DNA of 30,076 nucleotides from a virus. A program made the translations under genes and the position numbers. The notes under the pieces were generated by a model. It had not been told where the DNA came from, searched no databases, and worked only from the letters and a program-made list of their open reading frames with translations. The stretch spans positions 1 through 30,076 of IMG/VR virus record IMGVR_UViG_3300018906_000007; one strand, written 5' to 3'. This document shows positions 19,023-26,960 of the stretch, in pieces. The first letter of the stretch is position 1. Every line of letters begins with the position of its first letter.

Positions 19023-19544
19023 CTACAGGCAAGATTCTTCCTGGGGCCGCTCGTCGACGTAGATCCCAGCCTCGCGGCACGCCTGGACCAGCACGGGTAC
19101 GCGCCCGCTCGCCGCCTTGACCCAGCGGTCGGAGAGGACCTTGCCGCCCCTACCGGCCCGTCGGGCTGCGGCCAGCTCGGGCGTGATGGACAAGTAGATG
19201 ACCGTGAGGTCGCTCACCTCGTGTAGCGCCAGCAGGAAGCTGATGTGGCTGAGCCGCACGCCCTCCCCGAAGATGCAGTCGAGCCCCAGCAGCGGCACTG
19301 CCTGCACCCAGAGCAGCGCCTGAGGGGCGACGCTGAGGCTCAGCGCGTCGGTGCCGGGGTACTCGGGCCGCAGCCGCCCCAGGTAGGCCCCGCTTCCCAG
19401 CTCGGGGTGCTGGAGGTAGTGGCCGAACATCTCCTTCGAGGTCCACTTGGTGTACGGTCCGGGCTCCCAGCCGGTCAGCAGCTCGGCCATCAGAGTGCTC
19501 TTGCCCGAGCCTGGCGCGCCCACGATGTATGTAGAGCGCGTCAC
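19023..19544 (-). CDS. P-loop kinase, candidate 5-hydroxymethyluridine (DNA or nucleotide) kinase
   Basis: A 173-residue protein from GTG 19544 (GTGA overlap with the phosphatase gene). Residues 9-17 are a Walker A motif (GAPGSGKST). A CIFGEGVRLSH segment follows in the middle, and near the end is a basic LID-type stretch (AAARRAGRGG) as in nucleotide kinases. The size suits a single P-loop kinase domain. In thymidine-hypermodifying phages a P-loop kinase phosphorylates 5-hydroxymethyluracil in DNA, usually fused to a helical domain; here a separate gene at 22866-23834 encodes that helical domain. It could instead phosphorylate hydroxymethyl-dUMP. The kinase fold is clear; the substrate is inference. 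Confidence 0.65.
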   Translation of the reverse strand: MTRSTYIVGAPGSGKSTLMAELLTGWEPGPYTKWTSKEMFGHYLQHPELGSGAYLGRLRPEYPGTDALSLSVAPQALLWVQAVPLLGLDCIFGEGVRLSHISFLLALHEVSDLTVIYLSITPELAAARRAGRGGKVLSDRWVKAASGRVPVLVQACREAGIYVDERPQEESCL

Positions 19545-19987
19545 TTGAAGGTCTCCAGGAACGCGACGAAGTGCTCGTTGGCCAGCGCGTTGGGCCGACC
19601 CCGGCGGACGACCTCGACCGCGTCGAGCCCGGGGATGCCGAACAGGTGGTGCACGATGAGCGCGCTGAGCAGCCCCGAGCGGTTGCGGCCCGCGTTGCAC
19701 ATCGTCAACACGACCGCCCCCTCATCGATCGCCTCGGCGTACCGCTGAGCCATCAGGTCTATGTAGCTGCCCGACCGCAACACCCCGTCCGTGATGGGGT
19801 AGTGGGTGAAGCTCAGCAGCCCGAGCGCGTCGAGCTGGACCAGGTCCTCGTCCGGGAAGGCAGGGGCCATGGCAACCGCGTGCGTGATGCCTCGCACCAT
19901 GAACGCCTGGCTCTTCTCCTCCATGCTCACGCCGTGAGTGCGCCCACGCTGGTGCAGCGAGCCGGGGATGATCTCGTGGGCGATCAC
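19541..19987 (-). CDS. Dual-specificity-phosphatase-like protein (C(X)5R)
   Basis: A 148-residue protein (GTG start, GTGA overlap with the transferase gene). It carries the cysteine phosphatase signature CNAGRNRSG, with catalytic C97 and R103, preceded by VVLTM. A general acid candidate, D67, sits in HYPITDG about 30 residues before it, the normal spacing for dual-specificity phosphatases. The residue before the cysteine is Met, not the usual His, a mild deviation. The family removes phosphate from proteins, nucleotides or RNA 5' ends. Lying between an amino acid:DNA transferase-like gene and a P-loop kinase, it may act on phosphorylated base or nucleotide intermediates, but that is inference. 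Confidence 0.75.
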   Translation of the reverse strand: MIAHEIIPGSLHQRGRTHGVSMEEKSQAFMVRGITHAVAMAPAFPDEDLVQLDALGLLSFTHYPITDGVLRSGSYIDLMAQRYAEAIDEGAVVLTMCNAGRNRSGLLSALIVHHLFGIPGLDAVEVVRRGRPNALANEHFVAFLETFK

Positions 19988-20976
19988 AGCAGCGTCCTCT
20001 TGATTGCGTCGAGCAGGACAGGCTCAGCGAAGTTGGTGGTAGCGGTGTAGTCGTACAGCGTGTCGCTCCACGTATAGCCGTGGTCCGCCAGGACGCCTCC
20101 CAGCTCGGGCCGGACCCCGTCCCAGCCGTTCCACTCTCCCAGCGCCCACACGGGGAAGCAGGCCTCGCGAACATCGTAGAAGCTGGACTGCTGCTGGCGC
20201 TCTTCCCCCCAGTGTGCGTAGACGCGGCGGAAGTAGTCCATCTCGGTGTCGATGCTCTTGCCGGGGTACTGCTTGCGCCCGAGCACGCTCTGCTTGTACT
20301 CGCACAGCAGGCTCTGGATGGTGTAGTAGTCGGTCTCGATCCCGTACGCCATGTTCAGGTCGAGCAGGCAGCGAGCCGCAGCCTGGTCCGAGACCAGCAG
20401 CTCGCGGGCGCTGTTGCCGCCGAGCAGGGCGGGACCGTCCTCGGGGTAGAGCAGCGCGAGCGCCTTGCGGGGGTGCTGCCCCCCGTCGCTGTGGATGTCC
20501 GGCATGACCCACTCGGTGCCGAACGCGCGCCGGACCACCTCCAGCCACCGGATGGCGATGTACCGGCCCATGTACCGGCAGCCCGCGTCGAACTCGGCGA
20601 GCGCTTCGGGGTAGGTGGCAGGCCAGCTCAGCGTGTCGATGAAGCGGTGGTAGCTGGCCAGGCTCTCTGCGAAGAACGGCTTGCGGAAGACGGCCTTCCT
20701 CTCCTTGCGGAGCGGGATGCCCGCCCAGTGCTCTTCCGTCCACATGAGGAAGTCGGCCTGATTGAAGCTGTCGACCGGCCACTCCAGGAAGATCCGTTCG
20801 GCGCTCGGCCAGTTGTAGGTCAGCGCGTAGCAGCCCGCGAACCACAGCTTCTCGCGGGGGTCGTCGAGCCGGGACAGGCTCTCGACGGTCATGGCGACGT
20901 GCGGCGTGGTCCCCCCGCTGAGCTGGACCCCCTTGACGAACTCGGCGAAGTGGAGGAAGTGCTCGTCAGGCGTCAT
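19984..20976 (-). CDS. Amino acid:DNA transferase-like protein (ADDT / aGPT-PPlase family)
   Basis: A 330-residue protein from ATG 20976, overlapping the hydroxymethylase end by 11 bases. It begins with HFLHFAEFVKGVQLSGG, then WFAGCYALTYNWPSAERIFLEWP, a LRKERKAVFRKP segment and YMGRYIAIRWLEVVRRAFG. I recognise this order from proteins annotated as amino acid:DNA transferases, formerly alpha-glutamyl/putrescinyl thymine pyrophosphorylases. In characterised phages this enzyme replaces the (pyro)phosphate on 5-(phosphohydroxymethyl)uracil in DNA with an amino acid such as glycine. A second half with CRLLDL- and ETDYYTIQSLLCEYKQ-type helices follows. The call is by pattern; the neighbours strongly support it. 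Confidence 0.65.
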   Translation of the reverse strand: MTPDEHFLHFAEFVKGVQLSGGTTPHVAMTVESLSRLDDPREKLWFAGCYALTYNWPSAERIFLEWPVDSFNQADFLMWTEEHWAGIPLRKERKAVFRKPFFAESLASYHRFIDTLSWPATYPEALAEFDAGCRYMGRYIAIRWLEVVRRAFGTEWVMPDIHSDGGQHPRKALALLYPEDGPALLGGNSARELLVSDQAAARCLLDLNMAYGIETDYYTIQSLLCEYKQSVLGRKQYPGKSIDTEMDYFRRVYAHWGEERQQQSSFYDVREACFPVWALGEWNGWDGVRPELGGVLADHGYTWSDTLYDYTATTNFAEPVLLDAIKRTLL

Positions 20977-22447
20977 ACCGACCCCGGGCGAGCGTGTACG
21001 CCAGGGCTAGCAGCGTCTCGGTCACGTGCTGCTTCTGACGGGTGTCTCCATGGGGGTCTTCGGCGAGCGTCTCCAGGAACTCGAAGCCTTGGATGATGAG
21101 CTCGACGTCGACGTAGTCGTCGGCGTAGCCCTTCTCATACTCGCCCAGGATGATCTCGACCTCCTCGGGTGAACCCGAGCCACCCCCGAGCCAGGACCAG
21201 TACTTCGCCAGGTAGACGGTGAGGTCGAGCGCGGTGTCGAGCGGGGTCTCGTCAGCGGTCGAGCCGCCAGCGTCGAGCCGGTCGACCTTTCGGGCGATGT
21301 TGCCGAGGATGCCGGTCTCGCCCCGCCGCTTCCAGCTGTCCCCGTACGCGGCGTGCTTCTCAGCGTGCAACGCGTTGACGTGCTCGAAGAAGCTCGGGCG
21401 CTCGGGCTCGGCCAGCTTCAGCAGGGGAGGGTTCTCGGCGTACTCCCGAGCCTCGTCGCTGAGCGCGAAGCGCTGCGGAGCCCCAGCCGGGGCCACGCCG
21501 ACGAGCGCGGCCCGCTCGAGGCGAGTACCTCGGAGCGGCTGGAGGAAGCGCTCGTCGCCGCTCCAGTACCACTGCAGCACGCGGAGCCACGAGCGCATCA
21601 TCGGCTCGGGGAAGTGGAAGATCTCGACTTCGTTGGCGTGGCCAGTGCGGATCTCTCCCTCGATGCGGAACCACTCGCCGATCAGGCAGTCGAGCACCGA
21701 CAGCCCGCCGACCTGGCGAGCGTCGAAGCGCGGGCTGTCCGTGAGGAAGTAGTCGCTGCCGTCCAGCTCGGAGAGCCGCCGGGCCTTCTCCCAGTGGCGG
21801 TCGTAGAGGTGGAGGCTGGTGGTGCTGAAGTGCAGCGCGCCGACCTGGAGCCCGCTGAGCCCAGCGACGATCTCGAGCAGCACCGACCACTCGAAGGCGT
21901 TGATGCCGGACCAGCCCCAGATGAGGTCGTTGCTGCGGACCGCGACGTGGAGGTCGAGCCGCCCGAGCCGCGAGCTGAGGTTCAGCCAGTTGTTGCAGGC
22001 GATGTCCTTGCCGGGCATGAGGTCGAACAGCGGGTCCCAGATGGTGGCGACGGCCTGGCGCGAGCCGGGCGAGTCGCCCATGATCCGGACGAGGTGGGCG
22101 AGCTGGTCGACGCCGTGGTAGTCGCGGAGCCGTGGCCCGTAGCCCGCCCGCCAGGTGCTGCCGTCGTCGCTGAACTCGGCCGCTCGGGGGAGGTAGGGAA
22201 GCAGCGTCGCCACATCGTTGCGGCCAGCGAGCACCCACATGGTCTCGACGATCTGCGCGGCGACGCTCGCCTTGCGGATCGGCAGCACGATCTCCCGCTG
22301 CCACGGGCGCTCCAGGGTGATGCCGACGTGCATCAGTTCCTTGGTCACCCCGGCGCGCGAGCCGAACTCGTCGCCGTTCGTCAGCAGCTCGCGAGCCAGC
22401 TCGGGTAGCCCGTCGTTGACGTTGTTGAACACGAAGTTGTGTATCAC
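20966..22447 (-). CDS. Thymidylate-synthase-like dUMP hydroxymethylase fused to a nucleotide-modification domain
   Basis: A 493-residue protein from GTG 22447 (GTGA overlap); an upstream ATG in the same frame lacks support. Residues about 40-320 form a divergent thymidylate synthase fold: catalytic C151 in GKDIACNNW, the dUMP-binding RSND motif at 171-174, GINAFEWSVLLE with N183 at or next to the position that selects uracil over cytosine, and FSTTSLHLYD. This phage subfamily includes enzymes making 5-hydroxymethyl-dUMP. Residues about 350-425 match nucleotide modification associated domain 1 (DUF1599): EKHAAYGDSWKRRGETGILG, then IARKVDRLD. A plain thymidylate synthase is possible, but the neighbouring kinase-helical and transferase genes favour the hydroxymethylase. 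Confidence 0.78.
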   Translation of the reverse strand: MIHNFVFNNVNDGLPELARELLTNGDEFGSRAGVTKELMHVGITLERPWQREIVLPIRKASVAAQIVETMWVLAGRNDVATLLPYLPRAAEFSDDGSTWRAGYGPRLRDYHGVDQLAHLVRIMGDSPGSRQAVATIWDPLFDLMPGKDIACNNWLNLSSRLGRLDLHVAVRSNDLIWGWSGINAFEWSVLLEIVAGLSGLQVGALHFSTTSLHLYDRHWEKARRLSELDGSDYFLTDSPRFDARQVGGLSVLDCLIGEWFRIEGEIRTGHANEVEIFHFPEPMMRSWLRVLQWYWSGDERFLQPLRGTRLERAALVGVAPAGAPQRFALSDEAREYAENPPLLKLAEPERPSFFEHVNALHAEKHAAYGDSWKRRGETGILGNIARKVDRLDAGGSTADETPLDTALDLTVYLAKYWSWLGGGSGSPEEVEIILGEYEKGYADDYVDVELIIQGFEFLETLAEDPHGDTRQKQHVTETLLALAYTLARGRYDA

Positions 22448-22869
22448 AGCAGAGGCTCCCAGTCGTTGACGAGGTACATGTAGTGGAGGGTCGCGCCCTT
22501 GTGCTCGAACCAGGCGAGCAGCGCGGGCCAGCGGTAGCCCTGGGGGCTGTCCTGGCCGGTGACGTACCACTGTCCCCCGGCGGTGCGGATGGCGGCGTAG
22601 TCGTAGGTCTTCGGGCTGTTCGGGTAGCCGAGCTGGAAGCGGACGACGTGCCCCGCCTGGTCCGGCTCAGCCATCAGCAGGTCGAGCTTCTGCTCGGGGG
22701 TGAATCCGCTCGACGCTGCTGGGCGCGGGTCGCAGCAGCAGTCGTGAGCGCTCGCGGGGGCTTCGGTGAACGTCAGGCCGCTGTAGCGGCAGGCGCGAAT
22801 GTGCCCAGTCTCCTTGAGCGCTTGGCGCGGGTTGTACGTGGCGGCCTCATAGTCGTCTTCAGCGGTCAC
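22444..22869 (-). CDS. Hypothetical protein within the modification cluster
   Basis: A 141-residue protein (GTG start, GTGA overlaps on both sides). The N-terminal half is Cys-containing (RACRYSGLTFTEAP, then DCCCDPRP). The C-terminal half looks like a small alpha/beta domain (HVVRFQLGYPNSPKTYDYAAI, then WPALLAWFEHKGATLHYMYLV). I have seen similar C-terminal halves in uncharacterised actinophage proteins but know no function. Close packing between the helical-domain gene and the hydroxymethylase gene suggests joint expression. It ends in -LL. Confidence 0.65.
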   Translation of the reverse strand: MTAEDDYEAATYNPRQALKETGHIRACRYSGLTFTEAPASAHDCCCDPRPAASSGFTPEQKLDLLMAEPDQAGHVVRFQLGYPNSPKTYDYAAIRTAGGQWYVTGQDSPQGYRWPALLAWFEHKGATLHYMYLVNDWEPLL

Positions 22870-23834
22870 AGCAGATCAGCTCCGTCGGTGTAGTAGGAGG
22901 GCAGCACCGGGAAGGGCTGCGGCCCCGGGTGGGCGGGCTTGTACTTGGTGGCCGGCACCGGCTTCTCCCGGTACCGGGCGTACTTGCTCCACTCGCACAG
23001 GAGGTTGCTCCCGATGTCCATGAGGCTGGGTACACGGTACCCCACCTGGGGTACATCAGGCAAGTTCCGCACCGCGTCGACCACCCGCCGCACCACATAC
23101 ATCGTGGGCTCGCCAGGGCTGAGCTGAGCCGCGCCCTTCACCGAGCCCGGACCAGGCTGCAGAAACTCGTCCTCGAGGTCGCGATCCTGGGTGTAGGTCC
23201 AGTCGGCCAGCACCTGCATCGACATGAAGTCCCCGACACCCTTGTTGCGGCGCAGCAGCTTGTACCGCTGGGCCTGGCTGCGGGCTCGCTCCCACTCGGG
23301 CATGATGTCGTCGGGGGAGCCCGGGGTGAACAACCGCTCGGTGAGGTCCAGGATGCTGTCGAGTTTGTTGGTTCCCGGCGTGGCCGACTGCGGGAACACT
23401 AGATAAGCGTTCGTGAACACCGTCCGGGGGAAGGCTTTGACCTCCCGACGTTCTCCTGTGTAGGTGGCAATGTGCTGCGACCAGGGGATCCTGGTGTGGG
23501 TGCGAGGCTCGCCTCGGTAGGCGTGCCAAGCAGCCCGCACGTCCTTGAGGTTCGAGCTGGTGGGCAGCCCGCAGATCAGCTCCAGGTGCTGCCAGCTCTC
23601 GATGCGCCCGGTGTGGCGGTAGAGGAACGCGCGGAGCAGCCGGTCGCGCTCGTCCAGCTCGGGGTCGAAGAGGTCGGTCAGCACGTACTGCGTGCCGGGG
23701 TCGAGCACCCGGAACACGTTGGTGAACTTCCTGCTGGCGAGGATCGGGTCGTCCGTCCACGGCTGCGGAGCCCCAGCCAGCCGCTTCTCCCAGATGCGAT
23801 GGCGTTCAACCACGAAGCGCAGGAAGTCGTTCAT
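22866..23834 (-). CDS. 5-hmdU DNA kinase helical-domain protein (aGPT-PPlase clade 2-like), stand-alone
   Basis: A 322-residue protein from ATG 23834 (ATGA overlap). The N-terminus (VVERHRIWEKRLAG, PWTDDPIL, KFTNVFRVLDPGTQYV) is the signature of the helical domain of 5-hydroxymethyl-dU DNA kinases, earlier called alpha-glutamyl/putrescinyl thymine pyrophosphorylase. A LLRRNKGVGDFMSMQVLADW segment in the middle is a helix-hairpin-helix-type DNA-contact region, and the C-terminus has a LLCEWSKYARYRE segment. Characterised members carry this domain together with a P-loop kinase. Here no Walker motif is present, and a separate P-loop kinase lies three genes downstream. The protein probably positions DNA for base phosphorylation. 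Confidence 0.75.
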   Translation of the reverse strand: MNDFLRFVVERHRIWEKRLAGAPQPWTDDPILASRKFTNVFRVLDPGTQYVLTDLFDPELDERDRLLRAFLYRHTGRIESWQHLELICGLPTSSNLKDVRAAWHAYRGEPRTHTRIPWSQHIATYTGERREVKAFPRTVFTNAYLVFPQSATPGTNKLDSILDLTERLFTPGSPDDIMPEWERARSQAQRYKLLRRNKGVGDFMSMQVLADWTYTQDRDLEDEFLQPGPGSVKGAAQLSPGEPTMYVVRRVVDAVRNLPDVPQVGYRVPSLMDIGSNLLCEWSKYARYREKPVPATKYKPAHPGPQPFPVLPSYYTDGADLL

Positions 23835-24034
23835 GTCAGCTGCCCGGTACGTAGGGCGATGGCTACGGCGTGGGCAGCGTCGCGGGCATGGAGCTTGTTG
23901 TAGGCGTGGCTCAGGTGCTTCGCCACTGTGTTGGGGGAGAGATACAGCATCGCGGCGATCTGAGCACGGTTGTGACCCAGCGAGCGGAGCTCCAGGATCT
24001 CCCGTTCGCGCGGGCTGAGCGGGTGGGCGCTCAC
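23831..24034 (-). CDS. LuxR-type helix-turn-helix protein (stand-alone HTH)
   Basis: A 67-residue protein from GTG 24034 (GTGA overlap). Almost all of it is a GerE/LuxR-type HTH: LSPREREILELRSLGHNRAQ, IAAMLYLSPNTVAKHLSHAY, NKLHARDAAHAVAIAL. There is no receiver or ligand-binding domain, so activity may depend on its amount or on partners. It is a likely transcription regulator made together with the replication and modification genes. The HTH call is strong; target sites are unknown, although the repeated TACCCC/GGGGTA dyads are candidates. Confidence 0.85.
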   Translation of the reverse strand: MSAHPLSPREREILELRSLGHNRAQIAAMLYLSPNTVAKHLSHAYNKLHARDAAHAVAIALRTGQLT

Positions 24035-24279
24035 TTGCACTCGTCCTGGCCGGGTGCGTGGACCAACCAGCAGTTGGAGCACACCGGCTGCGGCCGGGTG
24101 CGAGCGGGGCAGCGGGCGTGCTGAGCTTCACCGTCCACCATCACACCCTCGTCGCCCTTCTCGAGCAGGGTGTCGCAGTTCGGGCAGTCACTGTCGAACG
24201 CGGCTATGAAGACGGACCTGTCGATGCAGGTGCAGCCTGTCGTGTCGATCGGCTGGTGGCAGCCCTTGCAGATCTTCAT
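24031..24279 (-). CDS. Zinc-ribbon-like Cys-rich protein
   Basis: An 82-residue protein from ATG 24279, overlapping the methyltransferase stop (ATGA); the longer open frame upstream is a shadow of that gene. It has three Cys pairs or clusters: CKGC and CTC at 4-25, CPNC at about 43, and CSNCW at about 68, plus single Cys residues, which suits one or two zinc ribbons. No enzyme motif is seen. Such proteins often contact nucleic acids or other proteins. Confidence 0.65.
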   Translation of the reverse strand: MKICKGCHQPIDTTGCTCIDRSVFIAAFDSDCPNCDTLLEKGDEGVMVDGEAQHARCPARTRPQPVCSNCWLVHAPGQDECK

Positions 24280-24929
24280 CGGACGAACATCTCCTCGACC
24301 CACCAGGCCTTCTCGGACCAGCGTGATCCCCAGATGCGGCGGAACCCCAGCTCGTCCTGCAGGCGGGCGCTTAGCCGCTCGGCCAGCTCGCGGTTGCCCC
24401 TGTGCTTGAAGTGCCACTCGATGAACAGCCGGTCGGCGCTGGCTGGGAAGCTCTCCAGCAGGTCGAGCAGGTACTCCCCTCCCTCGATGTCGATCTTGAC
24501 GAACGTCGGGTCGAGCCCCCGGCACAGCTCGGCCAGCGACCAGGTCTGGACGACGAACGGCACCCGCCCACGCTTGACGATCAGGCTGTGGCTGTCGGTC
24601 CCCTTGTGCTGGTTGAGGTAGATGGTCTCCAGCCCCGTCTCCGACACACAGGCTGCCCCCTCCCACAGCTCGACCCGAGGGTCGTCCACGTTCCGGCGGA
24701 AGAGCACGGTGTTGTCCGGGACGGGCTCGACGGCTCGCACCCGGACCGCTCCCGCCGCGAGCGCCCGAGCCGTGAAGGTGCCGATGTGCGCACCGAGGTC
24801 CAGTACCACGTCGCCAGCCGAGACCGCTGCCTCCTTCTTGAACATCTTGCGGGTGTCGGCGATGGAGACGAGGTCGCTGGTACCGGGGCGGTGCCAGAAC
24901 CCGTCCCGCTGCTCTAGCTGCTGGGTCAC
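24276..24929 (-). CDS. FkbM-family SAM-dependent methyltransferase
   Basis: A 217-residue protein from GTG 24929 (GTGA overlap). The SAM-binding motif VVLDLGAHIGTF lies at 41-52, the acidic loop motif AVEPVPDN at about 66-73, and FVKIDIEGGEY, the hallmark of the FkbM family, further on. The end (RLFIEWHFKHRGNRELAERL, then GFRRIWGSRWSEKAWWVEEM) is as in other members. FkbM enzymes O-methylate sugars and other small groups. In this cluster it could methylate a modified base or a host glycan; neither can be decided from sequence. The length is normal. Confidence 0.78.
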   Translation of the reverse strand: MTQQLEQRDGFWHRPGTSDLVSIADTRKMFKKEAAVSAGDVVLDLGAHIGTFTARALAAGAVRVRAVEPVPDNTVLFRRNVDDPRVELWEGAACVSETGLETIYLNQHKGTDSHSLIVKRGRVPFVVQTWSLAELCRGLDPTFVKIDIEGGEYLLDLLESFPASADRLFIEWHFKHRGNRELAERLSARLQDELGFRRIWGSRWSEKAWWVEEMFVR

Positions 24930-25127: not shown

Positions 25128-26960
25128 TCAGCCCTTCCTGTAGCGGTAGGTGATAAATCCTTCGCCGTCGAGCGGGAGCCCGGTAGCCCAGGGCGGTACG
25201 ACCGTCATGAGCTGGGTGACGTCCTCGAGGCGGTCAGTCTCCGCGATCACCTCGTCGTGCACGTGGCCTACCACCGGCAGCCCGGCAGCCTCCAGGCGGA
25301 CGAGAGCCCCCGCCAACACGTCCCGGGCGATGGCCTGGGTAGCGTTCTCGATGAGCCGCCCGCCGTAGGTGCCGATGCGGGTGGGCTTCTTCGGGTCGTC
25401 GTACCGCCACCCCTCCTTGTGGATCTTCTTCTTGGTCTTCGGGTCGATGACGACGTACCGCTCCCAGCGCACCCCGTGGTAGCCGATGGCCCGACCGCTC
25501 GGGAGGTGCATTCGGCGCGAGCTGCCGTGCCGAGTGATGTGGATGTGACGACCGACCCGACCACCCTCGCCGAACGCCTCATCAGCCAGCGTCCACAGCC
25601 GGACGATGCGCGCGTTGGCACGCCTCCACTGCTTCAGGAGGAGGCTGAGGTCCTCATCAGAGCCCTGCGCGCCCATCACCCGGAGGCTGTTGACCCCGCC
25701 CGCGTAGCCGAGCGCCAGCACCGCCACCTTGCCGGCTGAACGGCTGAGTTGGTTGCCCGGGCTGGACATGCGCTCGGCGGTCTCGACGTAGATGTCGCGG
25801 CCCGCGCGGAAGGCGTCGAGCGCCCAGGTCTCGTCGGCCATCCACGCCAGCACCCGAGCCTCGATGCTGGCATAGTCGACGACGCTGAGGGTCGGCTGGC
25901 CGATGAACATCGAGCGGACGAGCGCCTTCAGCGTGTAGGGCTCAGCCCCGAGCCCCATGTGCAGGTCCAGGATGGCCGCCTCAGGGTCGTCCACGGTGGC
26001 CCGGGGGAGGTTCTGGGGCTGGACGCGCTGGCCCGTCCAGCGGCCCGTGTGGGCCCCGAAGAAGCGGAACCCTCCACGGATGCGGCTGTCCGGGCTGACC
26101 ACCTGCAGCGCAGCCCCGAACTTGCCTCCCGCCGCGAGCGCCAGGTCCTGCCGCAGCTCCAGGGCTCGGCGGTGCAGCTCGGGCAGCTCGGGGTCTTCGA
26201 GCAGCGCCTCGATGGTCGCGGCCTGGCAGTTGGGGAGGTCGAGCCCGACGGTCTTGGCCCACGCCATCACCTGCTGGATCGAGCCCGGGTTGAGCACGCC
26301 GGTCAGCTCGGTGAACTCGTCCTTGCCGTCCGCCTTCCCCTCGTCGACGGCCACGGCTGCGGCCTTGCACAGCGCCAGGTCGATGAGCATGCCCCGGTCG
26401 TTGATCCGTTGGTCGGCGTTCCACACATCCCGCTCGCCCGGGGGCCAGCTCGGGAGCAGCCGGTGGACCTCGCGGTGAGTCTCGACGTCCTGAGCGCAGT
26501 AGGCCAGGAACTCCATCCACTCCAGCGGGTGCGACTCGGCGTCGTTCCAGCCCCCGCCTCGGCGCGGCTTGCAGAAGAGGTCGATCAGCTTCTTGCCCGC
26601 GCTGTCCTTGCCCTCCAGCCCGAGCGCAGCCGCGACGTTCTCCAAGCTGGCCGGGTAGCCGTGTTCCATGGCCAGGGACTGGGTGTCCTCCCACTGCTCG
26701 GGGTTCAGCAGACTGACGTCGATGACGGTGCCCAGGCACACTCGCTCGAACTGCGCGTTGTGCGCTACCTTCGGGGTGTCGAGCAGCCCGGGGATGGCCG
26801 CGATCTCGTCGTGCCCGACCGCCACCCGCACGGGGTCGTCCCCGTGGGCCCAGCCCGCCATCAGGATCTCGAAGCTGGGATCCTCGGTGTAGGCGTACAC
26901 ACCGAGCTTCTTCAGGTCGACGACCGAGCGGGTCTCGATGTCGAGATACAATGGGGTCAC
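25128..26960 (-). CDS. Family A DNA polymerase with 3'-5' exonuclease
   Basis: A 610-residue protein from GTG 26960 (GTGA overlap). Residues 1-170 form a DnaQ-type 3'-5' exonuclease: D7 and E9 in LDIETRS, N68 in AHNAQFE, and D158 in YCAQDVETH. The polymerase domain has the fingers/thumb entry GAHTGRWTGQRVQPQNLPR, motif A VDYASIEARV (D362), motif B around K411 with YAGG at 419-422, and motif C HVHDE (H568, D569, E570). There is no 5'-3' nuclease domain, as in T7-like and many actinophage polymerases. This is the replicative enzyme of the phage and would need to accept the modified nucleotide if one is incorporated. All catalytic residues are present. Confidence 0.92.
   Translation of the reverse strand: MTPLYLDIETRSVVDLKKLGVYAYTEDPSFEILMAGWAHGDDPVRVAVGHDEIAAIPGLLDTPKVAHNAQFERVCLGTVIDVSLLNPEQWEDTQSLAMEHGYPASLENVAAALGLEGKDSAGKKLIDLFCKPRRGGGWNDAESHPLEWMEFLAYCAQDVETHREVHRLLPSWPPGERDVWNADQRINDRGMLIDLALCKAAAVAVDEGKADGKDEFTELTGVLNPGSIQQVMAWAKTVGLDLPNCQAATIEALLEDPELPELHRRALELRQDLALAAGGKFGAALQVVSPDSRIRGGFRFFGAHTGRWTGQRVQPQNLPRATVDDPEAAILDLHMGLGAEPYTLKALVRSMFIGQPTLSVVDYASIEARVLAWMADETWALDAFRAGRDIYVETAERMSSPGNQLSRSAGKVAVLALGYAGGVNSLRVMGAQGSDEDLSLLLKQWRRANARIVRLWTLADEAFGEGGRVGRHIHITRHGSSRRMHLPSGRAIGYHGVRWERYVVIDPKTKKKIHKEGWRYDDPKKPTRIGTYGGRLIENATQAIARDVLAGALVRLEAAGLPVVGHVHDEVIAETDRLEDVTQLMTVVPPWATGLPLDGEGFITYRYRKG

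Follow-up and report, generated by a model that had tools for sequence, protein, structure and literature searches.

A divergent DNA transferase and its companion phosphatase in a phage thymidine-hypermodification operon: a possible route to inositol-bearing DNA

The subject of this analysis is a minus-strand operon in a viral sequence from IMG/VR, IMGVR_UViG_3300018906_000007. The entire record, 30,076 bases, linear and perhaps incomplete, was analysed and is called the window in what follows. To judge from the protein families that it encodes, the operon very probably directs a hypermodification derived from 5-hydroxymethyldeoxyuridine (5-hmdU). Two of its products, a divergent protein of the amino acid:DNA transferase (ADDT) fold, here named ADDT2, and a dual-specificity phosphatase (DSP), very probably work as one unit, and elsewhere in the ADDT2 clade this pair often lies beside a gene for myo-inositol-1-phosphate synthase (MIPS). 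Our tentative proposal, to which we give slightly less than an even chance, is that the DNA of the window phage carries an inositol-bearing (possibly O-methyl-inositol-bearing) 5-hmdU, generated by attachment of inositol phosphate followed by dephosphorylation.

To our knowledge, the phage thymidine hypermodifications characterised to date bear amino-acid- or polyamine-derived groups; a cyclitol delivered by the ADDT route would, if the proposal is right, add a new class to the known DNA decorations. A literature search on inositol and phage DNA modification yielded no report, and "undescribed" rests on the literature searched and on general knowledge. A previous examination of the window (the sequence-only reading) had already proposed a thymidine-hypermodification cluster with a perhaps undescribed product; the operon structure and the relatives described below strengthen that view.

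The ADDT2-phosphatase unit

The two genes at the center of the argument are:
19541..19987, minus strand: DSP, with a CNAGRNRS active-site loop and an Asp general acid in ITDG
19984..20976, minus strand: ADDT2, a divergent member of the ADDT-fold DNA transferases whose predicted role is to displace phosphate from 5-phosphomethyl-dU (5-PmdU) (PF18724 E 0.001; structural model)

The sequence-only reading had recognized an ADDT-like protein. The fold and the relatives bear this out, while the window protein itself (19.3 bits) stays under the PF18724 cut-off of 26.2; relatives in four contigs pass it. A PDB sequence search with ADDT2 gave no credible match, and the fold search succeeded: the AlphaFold model (pLDDT 94) is matched best by the 5-PmdU glycinyltransferase gp46 of phage PaMx11 (8z2n; structures 8z2m/8z2n), with Z 17.2 and a root-mean-square deviation of 3.1 over 243 residues. 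The next-best matches of the model, at a Z of about 9 (top 9.4), are 8-oxoguanine glycosylases and a queuine salvage enzyme. The 12 ADDT2 proteins make up one clade of the ADDT tree (support 100/99). The nearest ADDTs of isolated phages are those of CaiB, Tonitrus and Kozie, with no phosphatase annotated nearby (most Kozie genes being annotated only as hypothetical). No isolated phage with the ADDT2-DSP pair turned up among 50,697 phage records, and no bacterial ADDT2 in a search of genome contigs; 395 genomes of an actinobacterial class gave a single weak match.

The phosphatase, also noted in the sequence-only reading, is likewise clearer in its model and relatives than in its own profile score: DSPc E is 3.5e-4, under the cut-off, with two relatives over it (E 1e-9 and 5e-12). 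The Cys and Arg of the CxxGxxR[ST] active-site loop are invariant in 12 sequences, and the model (pLDDT 95) matches dual-specificity phosphatases at Z 17-19. The fold does not tell the substrate, because PTPMT1, PTEN and protein phosphatases score alike.

It is the company that DSP keeps that is telling. DSP is adjacent or fused to ADDT2 in 12 of 12 ADDT2 records (in the 11 besides the window its gene comes immediately after that for ADDT2 or is joined to it), and a DSP profile search found it in none of 97 other distinct loci with the 5-hmdU DNA kinase helical domain (HMUDK_hel) or thymidylate synthase (TS); the Fisher p of 3e-16 is only indicative because the sequences are related. One reading frame joins ADDT2 and DSP in L103, with the same protein in L154 and L155 (L numbers are our handles for the records compared). 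An intact CHAGRNRS loop is kept in two further fusions, one of ADDT2 with DSP (L176) and one of DSP with a P-loop kinase (L199).

Is the phosphatase "merely" doing clean-up? One alternative is that the group transferred by ADDT2 is an ordinary amino acid or amine, as it is in phages M6 and ViI, which would give a simple amino-acyl thymidine, perhaps methylated, while DSP strips unused 5-phosphomethyl phosphates off DNA or dephosphorylates nucleotides. The nearest solved relative of ADDT2 does transfer glycine, relatives of ADDT2 pass PF18724, and transferase and kinase would also be the expected neighbors of a phosphatase that acts on 5-PmdU, as in the L199 fusion. Classical ADDT clusters share the 5-PmdU intermediate, yet the 97 control loci are uniformly devoid of DSP, and the linkage to MIPS would be left unexplained. 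We judge this alternative unlikely. The corresponding expectation of the sequence-only reading, that an amino acid or amine is attached, has become doubtful here, in view of the separate clade, the constant pairing with DSP and the presence, in most known carriers, of MIPS where amino-acid-processing enzymes would otherwise stand.

As a separate observation, a 716-amino-acid open reading frame directly following the ADDT2-DSP-kinase cluster of L146 (L146:2977-5127) joins radical-SAM and TET-associated glycosyltransferase (TAGT) domains.

The inositol-phosphate synthase link

A MIPS gene adjoins ADDT2-DSP in half of the ADDT2 records (6/12: L148, L149, L151, L152, L153 and L154/L155) and is absent from all 97 control loci. 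The viral proteins match PF01658 at E 1e-28 to 1e-38 where scanned (PF07994 missed phage MIPS proteins that PF01658 detects), and in the PDB the L152 protein matches M. tuberculosis Ino1 best (E 3e-133). A scan started from MIPS took in 80 loci with 69 distinct MIPS; these were ranked by similarity to one ADDT2-linked MIPS, and the proportions are therefore not those of all phage MIPS: 36 of the 69 carry the ADDT2-DSP pair (ADDT2 never occurs among them without DSP), and 10 carry an ADDT of the type known from the isolated Caulobacter phage Cr30, in nine cases together with a Tet/JBP-like dioxygenase. In Cr30 itself, genes for ADDT (E 1e-52), a TAGT-like protein and MIPS are consecutive. That all phage MIPS serve this system is ruled out by Stenotrophomonas phage Moby (L156), which has MIPS and no match for ADDT, HMUDK_hel or TS; its MIPS gene lies two genes from homologues of QueC, TGT and QueE (7-deazaguanine chemistry).

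The methyltransferase that the sequence-only reading had listed is likewise present:
24276..24929, minus strand: FkbM-type methyltransferase (PF05050 E 8e-9; 36.3 bits against a cut-off of 22.7)

FkbM-type genes recur in the MIPS loci: between MIPS and ADDT2 in L160, L195, L199 and L203, after DSP in L182, after MIPS in L216, L222, L229 and L231, and beside a Cr30-type ADDT in L218, L235 and L236. The window FkbM clusters, though weakly (86/91), with its counterparts in L182 and L199. DSP and FkbM probably carry out the tailoring steps. The four loci with FkbM after MIPS also have a TS-like gene and no ADDT in the flank examined; they may point to an additional way of making inositol-bearing DNA or to some different use of inositol.

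Several points weigh against an inositol-bearing base in the window phage. The bias of the MIPS scan has been mentioned, and in the remaining 23 of its 69 distinct MIPS loci the flank examined contains no ADDT. PF01658 is absent from the 30-kb window record and from records L118, L100, L146, L147 and L150. MIPS is thus missing, in the available records, from the window and from the four closest to it by ADDT2 (L118, L100, L146 and L147), and for that reason the inositol step is one that we infer for the window. These five make up a single ADDT2 subclade, which lies among the MIPS-linked ADDT2 proteins and has a clade-specific His (His168) at the HPRK/SPRR motif, where MIPS-linked ADDT2 mostly has Ser. 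FkbM also flanks HMUDK_hel in glycosyltransferase-like clusters (L063, L060, L089, L099 and L050) and so is not inositol-specific. Could the host furnish what the phage does not encode? Bacteria from the order of Arthrobacter could provide inositol phosphate, since 96 of 119 genomes in that order have MIPS, and the isolated relatives of the window lineage, phages of Brevibacterium and Glutamicibacter, are actinophages. L100 (49% GC, 57 kb) and L146 (41% GC, 6.8 kb) are not obviously actinophages, which speaks against supply by the host.

These facts lend themselves to a second alternative: that in the window's subclade the acceptor is a different common metabolite that carries a phosphate (glycerol phosphate, a sugar phosphate, phosphoserine or phosphoethanolamine), with DSP again dephosphorylating after transfer. 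The lack of MIPS in all five members, His168 together with further motif differences, and the retention of DSP throughout are all in its favor. Set against these are the nesting of the subclade among MIPS-linked ADDT2, the incompleteness of the records, the FkbM common to window and MIPS-linked clusters, and a window operon that shows no recognised gene for another phosphorylated acceptor. We regard a different acceptor as rather unlikely, and retain inositol phosphate as the working choice.

The operon and its priming enzymes

The minus-strand run 19023-24929 extends exactly from the stop of the kinase gene to the start of the FkbM gene, in the order FkbM, Cys-rich protein, LuxR-type helix-turn-helix (HTH) protein, HMUDK_hel, 141-amino-acid protein, TS-fold enzyme, ADDT2, DSP, P-loop kinase. 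The members not yet listed, and the polymerase gene downstream of which the operon sits, are:
19023..19544, minus strand: P-loop kinase, Ploopntkinase3, probable 5-hmdU DNA kinase subunit (PF18751 E 5.9e-16, over cut-off; phrog_800 E 3.2e-11)
20966..22447, minus strand: putative TS-fold dUMP hydroxymethylase with a fused C-terminal domain (PF00303 E 5.4e-18)
22444..22869, minus strand: 141-amino-acid protein with an HDCCCDP motif (phrog_1342 E 6e-9)
22866..23834, minus strand: HMUDK_hel (PF18723 E 2.1e-42, over cut-off)
23831..24034, minus strand: small LuxR/GerE-type HTH protein (PF00196 E 2.3e-13)
24031..24279, minus strand: 82-amino-acid Cys-rich protein, zinc-ribbon-like (phrog_1581 E 1.4e-8)
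25128..26960, minus strand: family A DNA polymerase, directly upstream, a marker of the phage lineage (PF00476 E 4e-11; 69% identical in L002)

This is a single operon: from a 66-amino-acid open reading frame through the kinase gene every junction is a 4-nt overlap, except that TS and ADDT2 overlap by 11 nt. The left half of the window is a structural module with capsid, tail sheath (E 1.2e-26), tape measure and baseplate (Baseplate_J E 1e-17) genes, in agreement with the contractile tail already ascribed to this phage. The location of a tiny LuxR/GerE-type HTH gene inside a modification operon is recorded in passing.

Might the pathway be partial or decayed, leaving virion DNA with 5-hmdU or normal thymidine only? 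The contig may be incomplete, as that explanation would have it; the reading frames are intact, the catalytic residues conserved, the operon tight and the GC content at third codon positions uniform (0.81-0.93), and we consider decay very improbable.

The hydroxymethylase, HMUDK_hel and P-loop kinase of the sequence-only reading all reappear as profile matches; two further profiles that it had put forward, PF07659 and PF18746, find no match at E<1 among the window proteins. The top PHROG of the TS-fold enzyme is "thymidylate synthase" (E 4.5e-61), its identity to the phage SP8 enzyme is 37%, and its catalytic Cys151 and Asn183 are invariant among 7 relatives. The C-terminal third is a conserved domain (LHxxKxxAYGDSWKRRGE...ARKVDR) with no Pfam match at E<1; in phages L009, L012 and L063 it is a separate gene near HMUDK_hel. 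Tet/JBP dioxygenase genes adjoin ADDT2-DSP at L147:999-1916 and L150:7693-8757, and no TS was found in these contigs; 5-hmU could therefore also arise when T already in DNA is oxidised.

The P-loop kinase is 60-65% identical in the nearest contigs. Its family phrog_800 is labelled "terminase small subunit", which looks wrong: its members in the window and in PaMx11 (gp49, L018:6522-7091) are P-loop kinases in modification clusters. A PDB sequence search with HMUDK_hel gave no credible match. The name of this domain may also mislead, because it occurs in glycosyltransferase-containing clusters (L014, L063 and L060) that showed none of the P-loop kinase families sought; it may have a more general role in the handling of hmdU DNA.

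A proposed route

The sequences themselves establish the enzyme families, the operon, the ADDT2-DSP pairing as a unit and the MIPS link of the clade. From these a five-step route can be put together: 1) The TS-fold enzyme would make 5-hydroxymethyl-dUMP, to be incorporated in place of dTMP. 2) P-loop kinase and HMUDK_hel would phosphorylate the base in DNA, creating 5-PmdU. 3) ADDT2 would exchange that phosphate for a phosphorylated small molecule, joined through one of its hydroxyls; inositol phosphate made by the host is the likeliest candidate. 4) DSP would strip off the remaining phosphate. 5) The FkbM enzyme would O-methylate the attached ring. Hydroxymethylation, incorporation, phosphorylation and displacement of phosphate by an ADDT are expected by analogy with characterised relatives, the 5-hmdU route being that of M6, ViI and phi W-14 (PMC6449724). 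The dephosphorylation step is modelled on bacterial phosphatidylinositol synthesis, in which inositol phosphate is attached first and dephosphorylated after (PMC9246714). Inositol phosphate as the nucleophile and O-methylation by FkbM are suggested by gene neighborhood. For the route as a whole, with inositol phosphate as the likeliest acceptor, the chances fall just short of evenly balanced. Were it correct, dozens of viral inositol-phosphate synthases would acquire a likely function, and the prediction could be checked in an isolated phage, Cr30.

Apparent exchange of cassettes within one phage lineage

Contigs whose polymerase, HMUDK_hel and fused TS are related to those of the window (identities for L002: 69%, 65% and 60%) mostly carry a classical ADDT and a pyridoxal-phosphate (PLP)-like enzyme, a call made from sequence reading and the Montesquieu annotation "aminocyclopropane-1-carboxylate deaminase", with no Pfam match at E 0.01. 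More distant isolated relatives are LuckyBarnes (Brevibacterium) and Montesquieu (Glutamicibacter). On the same priming core L114 has a CaiB-type ADDT and LuckyBarnes two annotated glycosyltransferases; within the lineage the ADDT2-DSP pair occurs only in the window and L118. Because tailoring cassettes vary on one priming core, the end-product module would be exchangeable while hydroxymethylation and phosphorylation stay constant; judging by these gene sets, it appears to have been swapped and the priming enzymes kept. One can think of it as a lineage that changes its end product without changing how it begins.

The sequence-only reading had counted a Cys-containing protein in the modification set. 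Two such small proteins exist, and it is their place in the set that is doubtful: relatives of the 82-amino-acid protein lie upstream of HMUDK_hel in L028-L030, and those of the 141-amino-acid protein between HMUDK_hel and TS in L028-L030 and L106. Since L028-L030 are PLP-cassette phages, neither protein is specific to the end product; both are probably lineage genes and bystanders to modification.

Comparison with known systems

With the Pseudomonas phages M6 and PaMx11 and the Salmonella phage ViI the window shares a TS-fold hydroxymethylase, a P-loop kinase, HMUDK_hel and an ADDT-fold transferase (seen for PaMx11). Unlike theirs, its transferase belongs to a separate clade, and the acceptor is probably not an amino acid. 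Where PaMx11 has an FAD lyase and acetyltransferase, and other systems PLP or radical-SAM enzymes, the window has DSP and FkbM; as the sequence-only reading had remarked of PLP and radical-SAM enzymes, no amino-acid tailoring enzyme (PLP, radical-SAM or FAD) is seen among the ten cluster proteins scanned, and the scan of window proteins outside the cluster likewise gave no PLP or radical-SAM enzyme, in a record that may be incomplete. Montesquieu and L002-L005 have the polymerase, HMUDK_hel, fused TS and P-loop kinase of the window; they differ in having a classical ADDT and a PLP-like enzyme in place of ADDT2-DSP.

The MIPS-linked ADDT2-DSP clusters of metagenomic phages (L152, L203 and others), found in this analysis and absent from the literature searched, have ADDT2, DSP and P-loop kinase in common with the window, often also HMUDK_hel, TS and FkbM; they carry inositol-phosphate synthase and the window does not. 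Cr30 likewise encodes an ADDT, a TS and a P-loop kinase, and its MIPS gene lies close to that for the ADDT; its ADDT is of a different type, it has a TAGT-like gene and no HMUDK_hel, and the 21-kb stretch examined contains no DSP. Bacterial phosphatidylinositol synthesis (PMC9246714) follows a logic like the one proposed here, on a lipid acceptor and with other enzymes: an instance of analogy, not homology.

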